From positions 124,001-188,000 of the forward strand of contig NZ_CP046640.1 in NCBI RefSeq assembly GCF_017751145.1: 64,000 nt of DNA. Direction: 5' to 3'. This DNA is from Iocasia fonsfrigidae. Lineage in GTDB: Bacteria > Bacillota > Halanaerobiia > Halanaerobiales > DTU029. Below the pieces are notes generated by a model. That model saw only the letters and a program-made list of their open reading frames with translations, searched no databases and was not told where the DNA came from. The number at the start of each line of letters is the position of its first letter. Position 1 is the stretch's first letter. The position numbers and the translations under genes are program-made. Shown here in pieces: positions 24,016-33,260 of this stretch.

Positions 24016-24146
24016 TACTAAAAGTTTGAAGCTAGAGCTTTATAGTTTTAACTTTTAATATATATGTGTAGAGGAAGTAAATAGTAGGTTTAAGGGTCTA
24101 AAAGGTTTATTCCAACCTCTAACCTCCAACTTCCTACATCCAATAT

Positions 24147-24239
<93 letters not shown>

Positions 24240-24252
24240 ATAGATAAGATTT

Positions 24253-24521
24253 GGCCGTACTAAATGGGGGGGTAGCGGTACCCTGTAACCTGCAACCCGC
24301 TATAGCAGGATTGAAGCCGAGCTGAGGATTTTCCTTTGTGGGGTCCGGCCTTGATAAGTGGTGTTGACAATCGGGTCTTACGCAATGAAGCTTTATGAAC
24401 CCCGTCAGGTCCGGGAGGAAGCAGCGGTAAGTAAATGTCTTCATGTGCCGTAAGGGTGCTTGGTTCGAGCTAACTGTCAAGGTAACGCCTGGGAAGGGAG
24501 ATTCGAGGTAGGTGTACGGCC
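24253..24521 (+). ncRNA. ffs: Signal recognition particle RNA, long Firmicute type
   Basis: The domain IV core is unmistakable (GTCAGGTCCGGGAGGAAGCA then GCGG, 24403-24427), where Ffh binds. The ends pair (GGCCGTAC at 24253, GTACGGCC at 24514-24521) and a T-tract follows. The 5' part (GGGGGGGTAGCGG, CCCTGTAACCTGCAACCC) matches the Alu-like domain. At about 270 bases this is the long form found in Bacillus and Clostridia. Its place directly before dnaX is typical of Firmicutes. Confidence 0.95.
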
Positions 24522-26633: not shown

Positions 26634-27229
26634 TGAGATATTATCCCCGTCCTATGGGGAAGTTAATCAATGAGTTAAGTAAGTTGCCTGGGGTGGGTCC
26701 TAAAACTGCACAGCGTCTGGCTTTTTTTATACTGGGGCGTAATAAGGGTGAGGTAAATGAACTAGCCCGGGCTCTACTTGATGCCAGGGAGAATATAAGG
26801 TATTGTTCTGTCTGTAATAATTTGACGGAAGAAGAGACCTGTAATTTTTGTTCTTCACTGGAGAGAGACAGGTCATTAATCTGTGTGGTAGAGAGTCCTA
26901 AAGATGTAATTGCTATGGAAAAAACAGGTGAATATAATGGTCTTTATCATGTTTTACATGGTTCTATTTCCCCAATGGATGGAGTAGGGCCTGATGATAT
27001 TAGGATTAAAAATCTAATTCCCCGTCTCAAGGAAGGGGTTGATGAGGTCATTGTAGCCACTGATCCTAATGCAGAAGGTGATGTGACGGCTATGTATTTA
27101 GCTAAACTGCTAAAACCACTGGGGGTTAAAGTAACCAGGATTGCTCACGGTCTTCCGGTGGGTGGTGACCTGGAATATGCTGATGAAGTAACCCTATCAA
27201 AGGCTTTAGAGGGTAGGAGAGAGTTATAA
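26633..27229 (+). CDS. recR: Recombination protein RecR
   Basis: A 198-residue protein of the RecFOR pathway that helps load RecA at gapped DNA. It has an N-terminal helix-hairpin-helix ([15 protein letters not shown]), a four-cysteine zinc module ([16 protein letters not shown]) and a TOPRIM domain ([16 protein letters not shown], then [18 protein letters not shown]). The end ([20 protein letters not shown]) is typical. The ATG overlaps the ybaB stop by one base, so translation is coupled. Confidence 0.96.
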
Positions 27230-27264
27230 GTAGGACTATCATGATGGTAGTTCTACTTATTATT
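27228..27264 (+). terminator. Hairpin after recR
   Basis: ATAAGTAGGACTATC and its near-exact complement (GGTAGTTCTACTTAT) flank ATGAT. The tail is only moderately T-rich, so termination is likely but may be partial. Confidence 0.6.
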
Positions 27265-27359: not shown

Positions 27360-28307
27360 TTGATTACAACTGTTACTTTAAATCCAGCAATAGATAGGGA
27401 ATATTTTGTTACAGAACATGTGGCTAAAAGACATGAATACCTTTATGATAAAAAGGATATCAGGGTATACCCTGGTGGGAAAGGTCTTTTAACAGCAATT
27501 GATTTAAAATACATGGGATACCCAGATGTACAGAATTTAGGTTTTGTAGGTGGTAAACAGGGATTGTTTTTTGAAAAGATGGTCCAGAAGTATAAGATAA
27601 CGACAAATTATATCTATACCGAAAATGAGATCAGGAATAATGTCTTTATTATTTCAAAAAACCCGGTAACTTTTACCCATTATAGTGATTATTCTTACAG
27701 GGTGACTAAAAAAGATGTTGAGGATCTGATTAAACGCTTTAAAAGGGCTATAGTGGATAGTGATCTGATTATTATAGCAGGCTCAATACCTGAGGGTGTA
27801 GATTTTGATATATATCAAAGGATGATTAGTATTTGTAATGGCCAGGACAAGGATGTTTTCTTGGAGGCCAGTGGAGAGACCTTAAATCAGGCTTTAAAGG
27901 AAAAGCCAAAAGTAGTTAGTCCATACTTTAAACACACCAGAAAAATACTTGACCAGGAGGTTGTGGAATTTGAGGATTATGTAAAAATGGGTTATAGATT
28001 GTTAGAGGAGGGTGCCCATAGTGTAGTTATTCCTCACCACTGTGATCGTTTATTATTTATAGATGGCAAGGCTTATTCTTTAACACCAGTAGATTTTTGT
28101 CTTAGAAACTGGTTAGGTGCTGGTGATGCTTATAATGCTGGATTTTATGACTATATAGCCCGTAAAGGTTTTGACTTTATAGAGGCCAATAGGTATGGGG
28201 CAGCAGCAGCACTTACTGTGGCAGAAAACAGAAGTATTTTTATTAAAGATAAAGAATTGATCAAAGATAATTTAAATAGAATTAAAATCAAAGAGTTGGA
28301 GGTGTAG
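27360..28307 (+). CDS. PfkB-family kinase-like protein, copy 1
   Basis: A 315-residue protein of the PfkB/ribokinase fold, closest in pattern to 1-phosphofructokinase or tagatose-6-phosphate kinase: TLNPAIDREYF at the N-terminus, PGGKGLLTAIDLKYMG where true sugar kinases have GGKG-x-N-x-A, and the catalytic GAGDAYNAGF near 248-257. The Asn after GGKG is replaced by leucine, so sugar binding may be altered. It starts with TTG behind GGGAGGGAG and is followed four bases later by the CBS-domain gene. A phosphosugar kinase or a ligand-sensing role coupled to the antiporter are both possible. It is 99% identical to copy 2 at 30436 by eye (two residue differences after the start). Confidence 0.75.
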   Translation: MITTVTLNPAIDREYFVTEHVAKRHEYLYDKKDIRVYPGGKGLLTAIDLKYMGYPDVQNLGFVGGKQGLFFEKMVQKYKITTNYIYTENEIRNNVFIISKNPVTFTHYSDYSYRVTKKDVEDLIKRFKRAIVDSDLIIIAGSIPEGVDFDIYQRMISICNGQDKDVFLEASGETLNQALKEKPKVVSPYFKHTRKILDQEVVEFEDYVKMGYRLLEEGAHSVVIPHHCDRLLFIDGKAYSLTPVDFCLRNWLGAGDAYNAGFYDYIARKGFDFIEANRYGAAAALTVAENRSIFIKDKELIKDNLNRIKIKELEV

Positions 28308-28783
28308 CAACTTGGGTATAGTTAAGGATTATATGATGCGCACCCTGGTTTCAGTTTGTGAGGATGATCAGATAAAAGAGGCCATTAGAATTATGTATAA
28401 GGCCGAGATGTCGGTATTACCAGTTGTTAATGCAGAGAACAAATTTTTAGGGACTATTTATAGTGAAAACATATTAAAGAATATTCTCCCAGAGAAGTAT
28501 GGCTACCTTGTTAATAATCGTTTATTATATGAGGTTAATCAGGCAGCTGATAATTTGGAAGAGATTAAGGATAGAACTGTTGGTGAATATATGTTCGCCC
28601 GTACATCTGCTGTATTAGAAAATGACAAGATGTATAAAATTGCAGATGTTATGTTAGATAATAAAGAATCAATACTTTTTGTTGTCAATGAGTCTGGAAA
28701 TCTGAGGGGTTATATTTCCCGGGCAGATTTACTCTATTATTTATTAAAAGTCTGTAATAAACAGGATGAATAAAAAATAAGAC
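27372..28783 (+). repeat. Large direct repeat, copy 1 (partner 30448-31859)
   Basis: This stretch recurs 3,076 bases downstream with almost no differences across the PfkB-like gene and the first part of the CBS gene. One cluster of changes lies near 27841-27865. A divergent patch of about 90 bases (about 28519-28611) follows, then identity resumes to the end of the CBS gene. The antiporter genes that follow are clearly diverged. Confidence 0.93.
28312..28773 (+). CDS. Two-CBS-domain regulatory protein, copy 1
   Basis: A 153-residue protein made of two CBS motifs (VKDYMMRTLVSVCEDDQIKE, SVLPVVNAENKFLGTI; then MYKIADVMLDNKES, ILFVVNESGNLRGYISRADL). CBS pairs bind adenine nucleotides or related ligands and regulate enzymes and transporters. 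TTG start with GGAGGTG inside the end of the PfkB gene; translation is probably coupled. It stands between a kinase-like gene and an ion antiporter and so is likely the ligand-sensing link of the cassette. The segment around 69-101 differs from copy 2, while both ends are nearly identical. Confidence 0.82.
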   Translation: MGIVKDYMMRTLVSVCEDDQIKEAIRIMYKAEMSVLPVVNAENKFLGTIYSENILKNILPEKYGYLVNNRLLYEVNQAADNLEEIKDRTVGEYMFARTSAVLENDKMYKIADVMLDNKESILFVVNESGNLRGYISRADLLYYLLKVCNKQDE

Positions 28784-28825
28784 AATAATTCAATAATTCA
28801 ATAAAATATCGAGGTGTAAGTGAAG

Positions 28826-30118
28826 ATGGATTTTGAAATTGATAAATTGCGGGGGTTTGGAGAATGGTTTCTACTAAACCATGCTAATAATAAACTGATT
28901 TATGTGCTAGGAATTTTAATTATTATGGCTTTTTTAGTTGTCTTATTAACTAAAAGGTATAGGGTTCCTATTGTTGTTGGGTATGTTTTTTTGGGTATGT
29001 TGATTAGTCATGATGTTATAAATTTTTTGCCTTTTATAGGCTCAGTGCAGAAAGAGTGGTACTTTTTTGCGTTAAATAATCTGGGTTATCTGACCAATAT
29101 AGCTCTGGCATTTATTGCTTTTACTATTGGGACAGAGCTTTCTATTAAGACCTTGAAGCAATTGGGTAAATCTATTATATTTATCGCTTTGTTGGAATCC
29201 ACTGGAGCCTTTATGATAGTAACTTTGGTTGTACTTGCTATGGGCAAACCTTTATATCTGGCTTTAGTATTGGGAGCAATAGCTTCAGCAACAGCTCCGG
29301 CAGCTACAGTTATGGTACTCAAGGAATATAGGGCAGAAGGGGAATTAACCTCATCAATATTGGCTGTGGTAGGGATAGATGATGCTATAGCACTAATTAT
29401 CTTTAGTTTAGTAGAACCTATTGCACTTATTCAACTTAAAGGTGGGGGTAATCTTTCTCTGGGACAGATATTAGGCAAACCCTTCTTGGAGATATTTGGT
29501 TCGCTTTTTATTGGTTTAGTAGTAGGATATCTTTCCCAGATGTTGATAAGCAGTTTTGAAGATGATACTAAGAAAATTTTATGCTTAGTTACAACAATTA
29601 TAGGGGGTTCAGCCCTGGCTATTTTCTTGAATTTTTCTCCTTTGATTACAAATATGGCAGTTGGTTTTGCTTTTCGTAACTTTGCCAGGAAAAATCTCGG
29701 TGTAGGTAGTTATATGGATATACTTACGATACCTTTGTATGCTATGTTTTTTATTCTAGCTGGGACAGAGATACGTTTAACAGGTATTGCCTCAATTAGT
29801 TTTTTAATGATTGCTTTTGTCTATCTGATTTCTCGGATTATCGGCAAGGTATCAGGTGCTTCATTGGGTGCTATTTTAGGTAAAGCACCAGATAAGGTTA
29901 AGAAATATATAGGTTTCGGATTATTACCTCAAAGTGGTGTTGCTATTGCACTGGCATATACCGTACAACAGGACTTCGTTACAGCACCTCAGATTGGCTT
30001 ATTAGTTTTTAATGTACTTTTATTTACAGCAGCTTTGACTGAGGTATTTGGACCATTTGCTACCAAATATGCTCTAATAAAATCAGGTGAAGCAAGGGAA
30101 AGTATCACAAACACTTAA
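28826..30118 (+). CDS. CPA2-family cation:proton antiporter, copy 1
   Basis: A 430-residue membrane protein with about 12 hydrophobic segments. It carries the CPA2/Kef-type markers: RVPIVVGYVFLGML near 45-58, SATAPAATVMVLKEY near 155-170 and the DD pair in GIDDAIALIIFSL near 186-198, expected to be the ion-binding site. No TrkA-N/RCK domain is fused at the C-terminus, so regulation may come from the separate CBS protein upstream. I use ATG 28826 because it matches the start of copy 2. GAGGTG lies nine bases upstream. Na+/H+ or K+/H+ exchange is expected; the ion is not determined. A terminator follows at 30256. Confidence 0.85.
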   Translation: MDFEIDKLRGFGEWFLLNHANNKLIYVLGILIIMAFLVVLLTKRYRVPIVVGYVFLGMLISHDVINFLPFIGSVQKEWYFFALNNLGYLTNIALAFIAFTIGTELSIKTLKQLGKSIIFIALLESTGAFMIVTLVVLAMGKPLYLALVLGAIASATAPAATVMVLKEYRAEGELTSSILAVVGIDDAIALIIFSLVEPIALIQLKGGGNLSLGQILGKPFLEIFGSLFIGLVVGYLSQMLISSFEDDTKKILCLVTTIIGGSALAIFLNFSPLITNMAVGFAFRNFARKNLGVGSYMDILTIPLYAMFFILAGTEIRLTGIASISFLMIAFVYLISRIIGKVSGASLGAILGKAPDKVKKYIGFGLLPQSGVAIALAYTVQQDFVTAPQIGLLVFNVLLFTAALTEVFGPFATKYALIKSGEARESITNT

Positions 30119-30255
30119 TTATGAAAAGGACTATTATGAAAGAGCCTTATTTAAAAAACTTGTCTTGTAATGAAAAACGGCCTTTTTGTGTTCATATTAT
30201 GTTAATATATTTAATAATGAATTGATTAAAATAAGATTAAATTTGTTCAAAAGAT

Positions 30256-30287
30256 AGAGAATCCTTGTTTCGAGGATTCTCTTTTTT
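30256..30287 (+). terminator. Terminator between the two cassettes
   Basis: AGAGAATCCT and AGGATTCTCT form a perfect 10-bp stem with a seven-base loop and a T6 tail. The rest of the 317-base gap holds a promoter for copy 2 and nothing else seen. Confidence 0.9.
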
Positions 30288-30332
30288 AATGTCCAGGAAA
30301 TTAGTACTTATATTTTTTAAATTTAGAATAAT

Positions 30333-30362
30333 TTTACTAGTGTTTATTTTTTATGATATAAT
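30333..30362 (+). promoter_or_regulatory. Candidate promoter of cassette copy 2
   Basis: TTTACT, an 18-base spacer and a perfect TATAAT, about 70 bases upstream of the copy 2 kinase-like gene. A terminator precedes it, so copy 2 is likely transcribed independently of copy 1. Confidence 0.5.
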
Positions 30363-30435
30363 AAATTAAGATTTATACCCTAGGAATGGGGGGGGAATCT
30401 GACGGAATGATAAATTATTAAGGGGGGAGATAATT

Positions 30436-31383
30436 ATGATAACTACAGTTACTTTAAATCCAGCAATAGATAGGGAATATTTTGTTACAGAACATGTGGC
30501 TAAAAGACATGAATACCTTTATGATAAAAAGGATATCAGGGTATACCCTGGTGGGAAAGGTCTTTTAACAGCAATTGATTTAAAATACATGGGATACCCA
30601 GATGTACAGAATTTAGGTTTTGTAGGTGGTAAACAGGGATTGTTTTTTGAAAAGATGGTCCAGAAGTATAAGATAACGACAAATTATATCTATACCGAAA
30701 ATGAGATCAGGAATAATGTCTTTATTATTTCAAAAAACCCGGTAACTTTTACCCATTATAGTGATTATTCTTACAGGGTGACTAAAAAAGATGTTGAGGA
30801 TCTGATTAAACGCTTTAAAAGGGCTATAGTGGATAGTGATCTGATTATTATAGCAGGCTCAATACCTGAGGGTGTAGATTTTGATATATATCAAAGGATG
30901 ATTAGTATTTGTAATGACCAGGACAAGGATGTTTTCCTACAGGCCAGTGGAGAGACCTTAAATCAGGCTTTAAAGGAAAAGCCAAAAGTAGTTAGTCCAT
31001 ACTTTAAACACACCAGAAAAATACTTGACCAGGAGGTTGTGGAATTTGAGGATTATGTAAAAATGGGTTATAGATTGTTAGAGGAGGGTGCCCATAGTGT
31101 AGTTATTCCTCACCACTGTGATCGTTTATTATTTATAGATGGCAAGGCTTATTCTTTAACACCAGTAGATTTTTGTCTTAGAAACTGGTTAGGTGCTGGT
31201 GATGCTTATAATGCTGGATTTTATGACTATATAGCCCGTAAAGGTTTTGACTTTATAGAGGCCAATAGGTATGGGGCAGCAGCAGCACTTACTGTGGCAG
31301 AAAACAGAAGTATTTTTATTAAAGATAAAGAATTGATCAAAGATAATTTAAATAGAATTAAAATCAAAGAGTTGGAGGTGTAG
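30436..31383 (+). CDS. PfkB-family kinase-like protein, copy 2
   Basis: A 315-residue near-duplicate of the gene at 27360. It differs in its first codons at DNA level (ATG start here, TTG in copy 1) and at two residues near 162 and 171 (N-D-Q and L-Q where copy 1 has N-G-Q and L-E). The PfkB features are the same: TLNPAIDREYF, GGKGLL and GAGDAYNAGF. GGGGGGAG lies upstream. The ATG start and separate promoter imply that copy 2 can be expressed at a different level. See copy 1 for the functional reading. Confidence 0.75.
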   Translation: MITTVTLNPAIDREYFVTEHVAKRHEYLYDKKDIRVYPGGKGLLTAIDLKYMGYPDVQNLGFVGGKQGLFFEKMVQKYKITTNYIYTENEIRNNVFIISKNPVTFTHYSDYSYRVTKKDVEDLIKRFKRAIVDSDLIIIAGSIPEGVDFDIYQRMISICNDQDKDVFLQASGETLNQALKEKPKVVSPYFKHTRKILDQEVVEFEDYVKMGYRLLEEGAHSVVIPHHCDRLLFIDGKAYSLTPVDFCLRNWLGAGDAYNAGFYDYIARKGFDFIEANRYGAAAALTVAENRSIFIKDKELIKDNLNRIKIKELEV

Positions 31384-31859
31384 CAACTTGGGTATAGTTA
31401 AGGATTATATGATGCGCACCCTGGTTTCAGTTTGTGAGGATGATCAGATAAAAGAGGCCATTAGAATTATGTATAAAGCCGAGATGTCGGTATTACCAGT
31501 TGTTAATGCAGAGAACAAATTTTTAGGGACTATTTATAGTGAAAACATATTAAAGAATATTCTCCCAGAGAAGTATGGCTACCTTGTTAATAATCATTTA
31601 TTATATGGGGTAAATCAGGCAGCTGAAAATTTGATAGAGGTTAAGGAAAGAGGGGTTAAAGAATATATGTCAACCAGAACCTCTGTTGTAATGGAAAATG
31701 ACAAGATGTATAAAATTGCAGATGTTATGTTAGATAATAAAGAATCGATACTTTTTGTTGTCAATGAGTCTGGAAATCTGAGGGGTTATATTTCCCGGGC
31801 AGATTTACTCTATTATTTATTAAAAGTCTGTAATAAACAGGATGAATAAAAAATAAGAC
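30448..31859 (+). repeat. Large direct repeat, copy 2 (partner 27372-28783)
   Basis: Second copy of the 1.4-kb near-identical tract. The junction at the 5' end falls inside codon four of the kinase-like gene, and the 3' end falls just after the CBS gene stop. Confidence 0.93.
31388..31849 (+). CDS. Two-CBS-domain regulatory protein, copy 2
   Basis: A 153-residue CBS-pair protein nearly identical to copy 1 at both ends. The centre reads HLLYGVNQAAENLIEVKERG and then VKEYMSTRTSVVMEN, where copy 1 has a different linker. Changes are confined to the link between the CBS motifs, where ligand contacts and partner contacts often lie. This suggests that the two copies sense different ligands or bind different antiporters. 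TTG start, same ribosome-binding site arrangement as copy 1. Confidence 0.82.
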   Translation: MGIVKDYMMRTLVSVCEDDQIKEAIRIMYKAEMSVLPVVNAENKFLGTIYSENILKNILPEKYGYLVNNHLLYGVNQAAENLIEVKERGVKEYMSTRTSVVMENDKMYKIADVMLDNKESILFVVNESGNLRGYISRADLLYYLLKVCNKQDE

Positions 31860-31890
31860 TATAATTTAATAAGATACTGAGGTGTAATAA

Positions 31891-33198
31891 ATGGATTTTG
31901 AAATTGATAAATTACGGGACATTGGGGAGTGGTTTGTATTAAATCAGGCTAGCAATAAATTTATTTATGTGGTAGGTTTTTTGATCTTTATGGCTTTATT
32001 AGTTGTCTTATTATCTAAAAAGTATAGGGTTCCTATTGTTGTTGGATATGTTTTTTTGGGTATGTTATTTAGTCATGATGTTATAAGTGCCCTCCCTTTT
32101 ATAAGTCCAGAACAAAAAGAATGGTACTTTTTTACCTTGAACAACTTTGAGTATATGACTAATATAGCTCTGGCATTTATTGCTTTTACTATTGGTACTG
32201 AGCTTTCGGTTAAGATGTTAAGACGTCTGGGTAAACCGATTATGTTTATTGCCTTTATACAATGTATAGCAGCTTTTCTTGTAGTAACAATAGCGGTACT
32301 TGCTATTGGTAAGCCGCTATATCTGGCTTTAATATTGGGGGCAATATCTTCAGCAACAGCACCAGCCGCAACTGTAATGGTACTTAAGGAATATAAAGCT
32401 GAAGGTGTACTGACAGCAATGATCATTGCTGTAATAGGGATAGATGATGCTATAGCCCTGATAATTTTTAGTCTAATAGAACCTATTGCTCTTACGCAAT
32501 ATAGTGGGAGTGGCTCCCTGGCTATTAGCCATCTATTGGGAGAACCGATGATAGAGATTTTTGCTTCTCTATTTATTGGCTTGATTATCGGTTACCTTTC
32601 CCAAAGTTTAATAAGTACCTTTGAGGATAGTACTAAGAAAATTTTAACTTTAGTCACAACTATTATAGGTGGATCAGCACTGGCGCTTTTACTGAATTTG
32701 TCTCCCTTAATAACTAATATGGCAGTTGGTTTTGCTTTTCGTAACTTTGCCAGGAAAAACCTTGGTGTAGGTAATTATATGGACATACTTACGATACCTT
32801 TATATGCTCTATTTTTTATTCTGGCTGGGACAGAGATAAGGTTGGCAAGTATAGCTTCAAGTAGTTTTTTGATCATTGCTTTTGTTTATTTAATCTCCAG
32901 GGTTATAGGTAAGGTGTCAGGTGCCTCTTTAGGGGCAATTTTGGGACAGGCACCAGATAAAGTCAAGAAATATATTGGTTTAGGCTTGTTACCGCAGAGT
33001 GGTGTTGCTATAGCAATGGCCTATACTGTGCAGCAGGATTTTATAGCAGTTCCTGAAGTTGGTTTGCTGGTTTTTAATGTGTTGTTATTTACAGCAGCAC
33101 TTACTGAGGTATTTGGACCATTTGCTACCAAATATGCAGTAGTCAAAGCTGGTGAAGCACATGGTTTAGAAGAGGGAGTACGAAAAGAGAATGCTTAA
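31891..33198 (+). CDS. CPA2-family cation:proton antiporter, copy 2
   Basis: A 435-residue paralogue of the antiporter at 28826, about three-quarters identical by eye. It keeps RVPIVVGYVFLGML, SATAPAATVMVLKEY and the GIDDAIAL ion-binding pair. Differences are spread across loops and lipid-facing helices (for example SPEQKEWYFFTLNNFEYM). The C-terminal tail is longer (GLEEGVRKENA). GAGGTG precedes the ATG. The split between near-identical upstream genes and diverged transporter genes suggests specialised ion or pH ranges under shared regulation. Confidence 0.85.
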   Translation: MDFEIDKLRDIGEWFVLNQASNKFIYVVGFLIFMALLVVLLSKKYRVPIVVGYVFLGMLFSHDVISALPFISPEQKEWYFFTLNNFEYMTNIALAFIAFTIGTELSVKMLRRLGKPIMFIAFIQCIAAFLVVTIAVLAIGKPLYLALILGAISSATAPAATVMVLKEYKAEGVLTAMIIAVIGIDDAIALIIFSLIEPIALTQYSGSGSLAISHLLGEPMIEIFASLFIGLIIGYLSQSLISTFEDSTKKILTLVTTIIGGSALALLLNLSPLITNMAVGFAFRNFARKNLGVGNYMDILTIPLYALFFILAGTEIRLASIASSSFLIIAFVYLISRVIGKVSGASLGAILGQAPDKVKKYIGLGLLPQSGVAIAMAYTVQQDFIAVPEVGLLVFNVLLFTAALTEVFGPFATKYAVVKAGEAHGLEEGVRKENA

Positions 33199-33229: not shown

Positions 33230-33260
33230 AGGGCAGCTGTGAAATTGGCTGCCCTATTTT
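33230..33260 (+). terminator. Terminator after cassette copy 2
   Basis: AGGGCAGC and GCTGCCCT form a perfect 8-bp stem around TGTGAAATTG, with a TATTTTATT tail. Confidence 0.85.

Follow-up and report, generated by a model that had tools for sequence, protein, structure and literature searches.

A tandem kinase-CBS-antiporter operon pair in Iocasia fonsfrigidae that combines near-identical and diverged segments: evidence for partial gene conversion of an old duplication

Paralogues in which near-identical segments are broken by short diverged islands have been treated in the model of Teshima and Innan and are found in the GOT1 genes of Tigriopus, where the islands may mark differences kept by selection (PMC3728101). 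The bacterium Iocasia fonsfrigidae carries an operon pair of the same kind, whose islands may likewise mark selected differences, although it differs from the GOT1 case in being a bacterial tandem operon, in combining a contrast between whole genes with a single linker island, and in being known from the sequence of one genome. The pair is an instance of an already known phenomenon, segmental gene conversion, which it displays very cleanly for a bacterium; a search of the literature on this operon and on gene conversion in Halanaerobiales found nothing specific. The genome of strain NS-1 (3,926,493 bases; PMC9587714) was sequenced with PacBio RSII (PMC8652127) and its assembly is a single contig of 3,926,493 bases. 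The stretch analysed here, termed the window, comprises 64,000 nucleotides of this contig, and feature coordinates refer to it.

The operon is present twice in the window: cassettes A and B follow one another as direct repeats on the + strand, with recR on one side and a ydcZ-like gene on the other. The closest described relative of its antiporters is NapA, a Na+/H+ antiporter of the CPA2 group, which is the best sequence and structure match (4bwz/5bz2; Foldseek E = 2e-12) and shares with them the fold and the DD motif of the core helix (GIDDA). Antiporters A (28820..30118, with the homologous start at 28826) and B (31891..33198) are predicted NapA-like CPA proteins with a Na_H_Exchanger domain (PF00999) and an acidic pair in the core helix, which reads GIDDAIAL in both copies; unlike NapA, to which they are about 21% identical, they share an operon with genes for a CBS protein and a PfkB homologue, and their ion specificity is only predicted. 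The two-CBS-domain (Bateman) protein (PF00571), encoded at 28312..28773 in copy A and at 31388..31849 in copy B (92% identity), has as top structural matches of its AF2 model in the PDB CBSX2, AcuB and DarB/CbpB, proteins with the same two domains that bind adenine nucleotides or c-di-AMP, though identity to these is about 17-24%. Assignment as the c-di-AMP binding protein CbpB was rejected, with a score of 37.1 bits against a cut-off of 125 (NCBIfam NF041630).

The first gene of each cassette (copy A, 27360..28307, TTG start; copy B, 30436..31383, ATG start; 99% identity) encodes a PfkB/1-phosphofructokinase-like sugar kinase homologue (PF00294), which resembles the 1-phosphofructokinase/tagatose-6-phosphate kinase branch of PfkB in its fold, its TLNPAID start and its GAGD motif, and has 2ajr as nearest solved structure. 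It scores under all NCBIfam cut-offs, that of the 1-phosphofructokinase subfamily included; identification as that enzyme was discarded at 163.8 against 292 bits (TIGR03828) and 165.6 against 216.4 bits (TIGR03168). Gene order conserved across the class suggests that this is most likely a module in which a nucleotide-responsive CBS regulator acts on an antiporter with the sugar-kinase homologue. The nucleotide-sensing CBS protein and the PfkB-type protein would then regulate a NapA-like Na+(K+)/H+ antiporter, and a physical interaction of the three proteins is suggested by conserved gene order only. This ion-transport operon is conserved in halophilic anaerobes and seems not to have been characterised before.

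Terminator-like hairpins flank each cassette: one lies 3' of recR and 5' of cassette A (27226..27260, + strand), another in the 317-base spacer between the cassettes (30119..30435; hairpin at 30256-30282) and a third 3' of cassette B (33230..33255, + strand). The inter-cassette spacer also contains a promoter-like site of the extended -10 type (30333-30362), although such matches are not commoner than chance. The two cassettes would form separately transcribed units. Neither homology of the inter-cassette spacer to the other cassette flanks nor similarity between copies A and B upstream of the kinase genes was detectable, and an Rfam search found no riboswitch 5' of the cassettes.

An initial annotation, made from the letters of the window, had reported near-identity of the copies across the kinase-like gene and through the greater part of the CBS gene, at an offset of 3,076 bases, and alignment confirms this: the offset is fixed at 3,076 bases through both genes and is 3,065 for the antiporters. 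The kinase copies differ at 8 of 945 bases, four of which fall in codons 1-4, and the first recent conversion tract begins at codon 5, within the gene and not at its start, a point which the initial annotation missed. This tract extends to CBS codon 69 (27373..28519, partner 30449-31595) with 5 differences in 1,147 bases, four of them clustered within 24 bases (27841..27864; p = 0.0002); this micro-island, likewise missed before, looks like one more unconverted remnant. Residue 169, within it, is Glu in copy A and Gln in copy B; Gln, His or Lys occupies this position in relatives. The CBS genes differ at 25 bases, of which 23 lie among the 99 bases of codons 70-102 (28520..28617, partner 31596-31693; 12 residues differ) and the remainder only in codons 30 and 120. 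Nucleotide identity in this island is 76.8%, level with the 78.1% of the antiporters. Identity then resumes, as had been reported along with the dense patch itself, in a second recent tract (28618..28783, partner 31694-31859) which has one difference in 166 bases and runs on for 10 bases beyond the stop codon of the CBS gene. Past this point the CBS-antiporter spacer and the antiporter gene are about 78% identical between copies; the antiporters differ at 282 of 1,290 aligned coding bases and at 94 of 430 residues (22%), slightly under the quarter first estimated.

Silent divergence shifts sharply along the duplicates, as it does in gene-converted pairs. Silent differences affect 1 of 304 conserved codons in the kinase (codons 5-315) and 2 of 114 in the CBS gene outside the island, compared with 127 of 328 in the antiporter, a contrast far beyond chance (kinase plus CBS versus antiporter, Fisher p = 2e-48). 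Synonymous divergence is correspondingly far from uniform by segment, with dS of 0.011 for kinase codons 6-315, 0.025 for CBS codons 1-69, 0.034 for CBS codons 103-153 and 0.95 for the antiporter. In kinase codons 2-4, all three conserved codons carry a silent difference (p = 8e-7). Within the antiporter pair itself silent differences are patchier than chance (p = 0.0005), unlike those of orthologous antiporter pairs (p = 0.12 to 0.95), which hints that the antiporters, too, probably underwent conversion earlier and over shorter stretches.

The cassette's kinase was found in 29 of the 121 genomes searched around I. fonsfrigidae, a comparison set with only one genome of the genus and no other genome with a tandem cassette pair. 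In the family members G001 and G003 the operon is single-copy where Iocasia has two, the single cassette lying at the syntenic site between recR and ydcZ/DUF2508 (loci L072 and L075). Antiporters A and B are sisters in the tree (support 100/100, path 0.45), with an antiporter of G001 (G001a) next (92/88), and the duplication is therefore specific to the Iocasia lineage among the sampled genomes. In the kinase tree a distance of only 0.006 separates the two Iocasia sequences, compared with about 0.46 to the next relative. Between species, kinase and antiporter distances rise together; within Iocasia the antiporters cover a sizeable share of the distance to the next species and the kinases almost none, so that the converted part of the pair is closer than its unconverted part predicts.

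We consider the following account, taken as a whole, to be very probable. Once the Iocasia lineage had separated from the other sampled family members, its kinase-CBS-antiporter cassette between recR and ydcZ would have undergone tandem duplication, and cassettes A and B would then have diverged over a long period. Recent ectopic gene conversion of the RecA type, acting between these neighbouring direct repeats, would have overwritten most of one copy's kinase and CBS genes with those of the other, leaving as relics of the old divergence the kinase start, the 24-base micro-island, CBS codons 70-102 and the whole antiporter, and the antiporters would have specialised while the regulatory front end stays common. 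The core of this account, an old duplication with gene conversion over part of the copies, had been proposed in the initial annotation and is well supported by the sister antiporters, the kinase dS of about 0.01, the relics, the single-copy relatives and the PacBio assembly. Discontinuous conversion of long-established copies explains kinase codons 2-4, the CBS island and the diverged spacers together. The CBS-antiporter spacers are homologous yet diverged, and that junction was therefore duplicated long ago; antiporters, flanks and islands together make a recent duplication of the whole cassette an insufficient explanation. The further proposal that conversion was repeated has moderate support, from the near-identity that flanks the CBS patch on either side and from the patchy silent sites of the antiporters, although one event with patchy repair could account for the recent tracts.

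The initial annotation also invoked selection for different antiporters, which the evidence supports only in part. Antiporters A and B have a dN/dS of 0.14, which matches or exceeds the highest values for orthologue pairs (roughly 0.04 to 0.12), and nearly all family-invariant columns are retained in both copies. Both antiporters look like functional proteins under purifying selection, and as judged from these substitution patterns they offer no positive case for diversification. The CBS island, mentioned earlier but not singled out, shows an excess of amino-acid change, with 17.8 nonsynonymous and 5.2 synonymous changes (dN 0.27, dS 0.30; dN/dS about 0.93), against 118:164 for the antiporters (p = 9e-4) and, with island borders picked post hoc in a single genome, against 32.5:74.5 (dN/dS about 0.1; p = 3e-5) for the same codons in nine comparison pairs, which overlap, are not fully independent and include one paralogue pair. 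Silent differences in the island (3 of 20 conserved codons) are fewer than in the antiporter (p = 0.03), and the island is therefore not a simple neutral relic. With the majority residues of relatives as the reference for which copy changed, 2 island positions deviate in copy A alone and 5 in copy B alone, and neither copy has the commonest residue at codons 89 and 102; both CBS copies thus seem to have changed within the island. These patterns hint that the CBS island, more than the antiporters, carries the signal of selection.

In the predicted CBS structure (AF2), the island takes in a low-confidence linker (67-72) and a helix (74-85) and reaches into the first part of the second CBS domain. 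This linker-helix island may adapt the two CBS proteins to their respective antiporters, and the surviving islands offer a natural map of those parts of the module that may need to differ, singling out a short CBS stretch as a candidate contact or signalling element. The stronger reading, that the 33 codons are a specificity element which matches each regulator to its cognate antiporter and that selection maintains their difference in the face of ongoing conversion, is tentative and on present evidence rather unlikely; were it true, the place where a CBS protein contacts the antiporter that it regulates could be read from sequence alone. A third CBS gene was considered as donor of the island and none in the genome qualifies, the CBS gene at 1.877 Mb being only 48% (copy A) and 45% (copy B) identical there. 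That gene belongs to a third CBS-antiporter pair (L091:7130-8890), which is without a kinase and falls in the other old antiporter clade.

The strongest alternative opposes the selection part of our account and not the conversion: the pattern may be wholly neutral, conversion having stopped where heterology became excessive, with no selection on the differences in antiporter or CBS protein, and we give this a substantial chance, somewhat short of even. Divergence of about 22% is sufficient to suppress homologous recombination, and that between the antiporters could by itself block further conversion. The CBS island is harder to accommodate, since it is just 99 bases long amid long identity and yet persists with its high dN/dS, and direct repeats of this size would be expected to recombine away unless both cassettes were useful. 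Acetohalobium arabaticum (genome 2,469,596 bases; PMC3035264) bears on the same question. It has two dispersed cassettes in which the antiporters are 92% identical in nucleotides and the kinases 83%, with dS of 0.26 and 0.70, respectively, and silent differences in its antiporter pair are again patchy (p = 0.0005). This mosaic is the reverse of that in Iocasia, with the antiporter half more homogenised; the family consequently has no rule of keeping antiporters different, and for Iocasia, too, chance and local heterology have to be taken seriously as explanations.

An appreciably less probable alternative, which we regard as improbable though worth stating, is that the whole cassette was recently duplicated in tandem, after which homologous DNA of an unsampled species of the genus replaced one antiporter with its flanks as well as the CBS patch (xenologous replacement). 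It would equally yield near-identical kinase and CBS genes beside antiporters of 78% identity, and with Iocasia as the sole genome of its genus in the comparison set such a donor could exist. It requires, however, several pieces to have been exchanged independently, namely the 5' end of the kinase gene together with the adjoining flank, the micro-island of 24 bases, the diverged CBS codons, and the antiporter along with its spacer. Moreover, both copies depart from the family majority in the CBS patch, their departures in the antiporter are near equal (13 and 12), and the flanks bear no trace of a recent duplication junction.

Very unlikely is an ancestral kinase-CBS-antiporter-antiporter order in which the kinase-CBS block was recently copied between the antiporters, without conversion. 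One kinase-CBS pair followed by two tandem antiporters does occur in eight other genomes, but their tandem antiporters fall in older, separate antiporter clades, whereas Iocasia A and B are sisters and not split between two old clades; the CBS-antiporter spacers, being homologous and old, also speak against it. Old divergence survives in codons 2-4 of the kinase and in the CBS patch, which means that each kinase-CBS pair was in place before the homogenisation; this relic divergence and the antiporter tree led us to reject such a history. Least credible is a repeat-induced misassembly, for although near-identical repeats of 1.1 kb are able to confuse short-read assembly, the PacBio RSII single contig, the distinct flanks, and copies that differ within and outside the tract with no collapse pattern make it unlikely.

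Several smaller observations concern the wider order. Eight loci in other genomes (L077-L081, L094, L098 and L100) have a single kinase-CBS pair followed by two unlike tandem antiporters, and the second of these has an origin in Halanaerobium separate from that in the f11 genomes. The PfkB GAGD motif is GAGE or GASE in nearly all sampled kinases of groups f11 and f8 (L077-L082, L084, L088, L089) and GASD or GSSD in most Halanaerobium species (L093-L100). With the motif altered in so many orthologues, a role as sensor or pseudokinase seems possible for the kinase-like protein across much of the order; GAGD is intact in both Iocasia kinases. Elsewhere in the window, an ARAGORN tmRNA call at 24143-24519 overlaps tRNA-Ser and the bacterial large SRP RNA (Rfam RF01854) and is most likely spurious.
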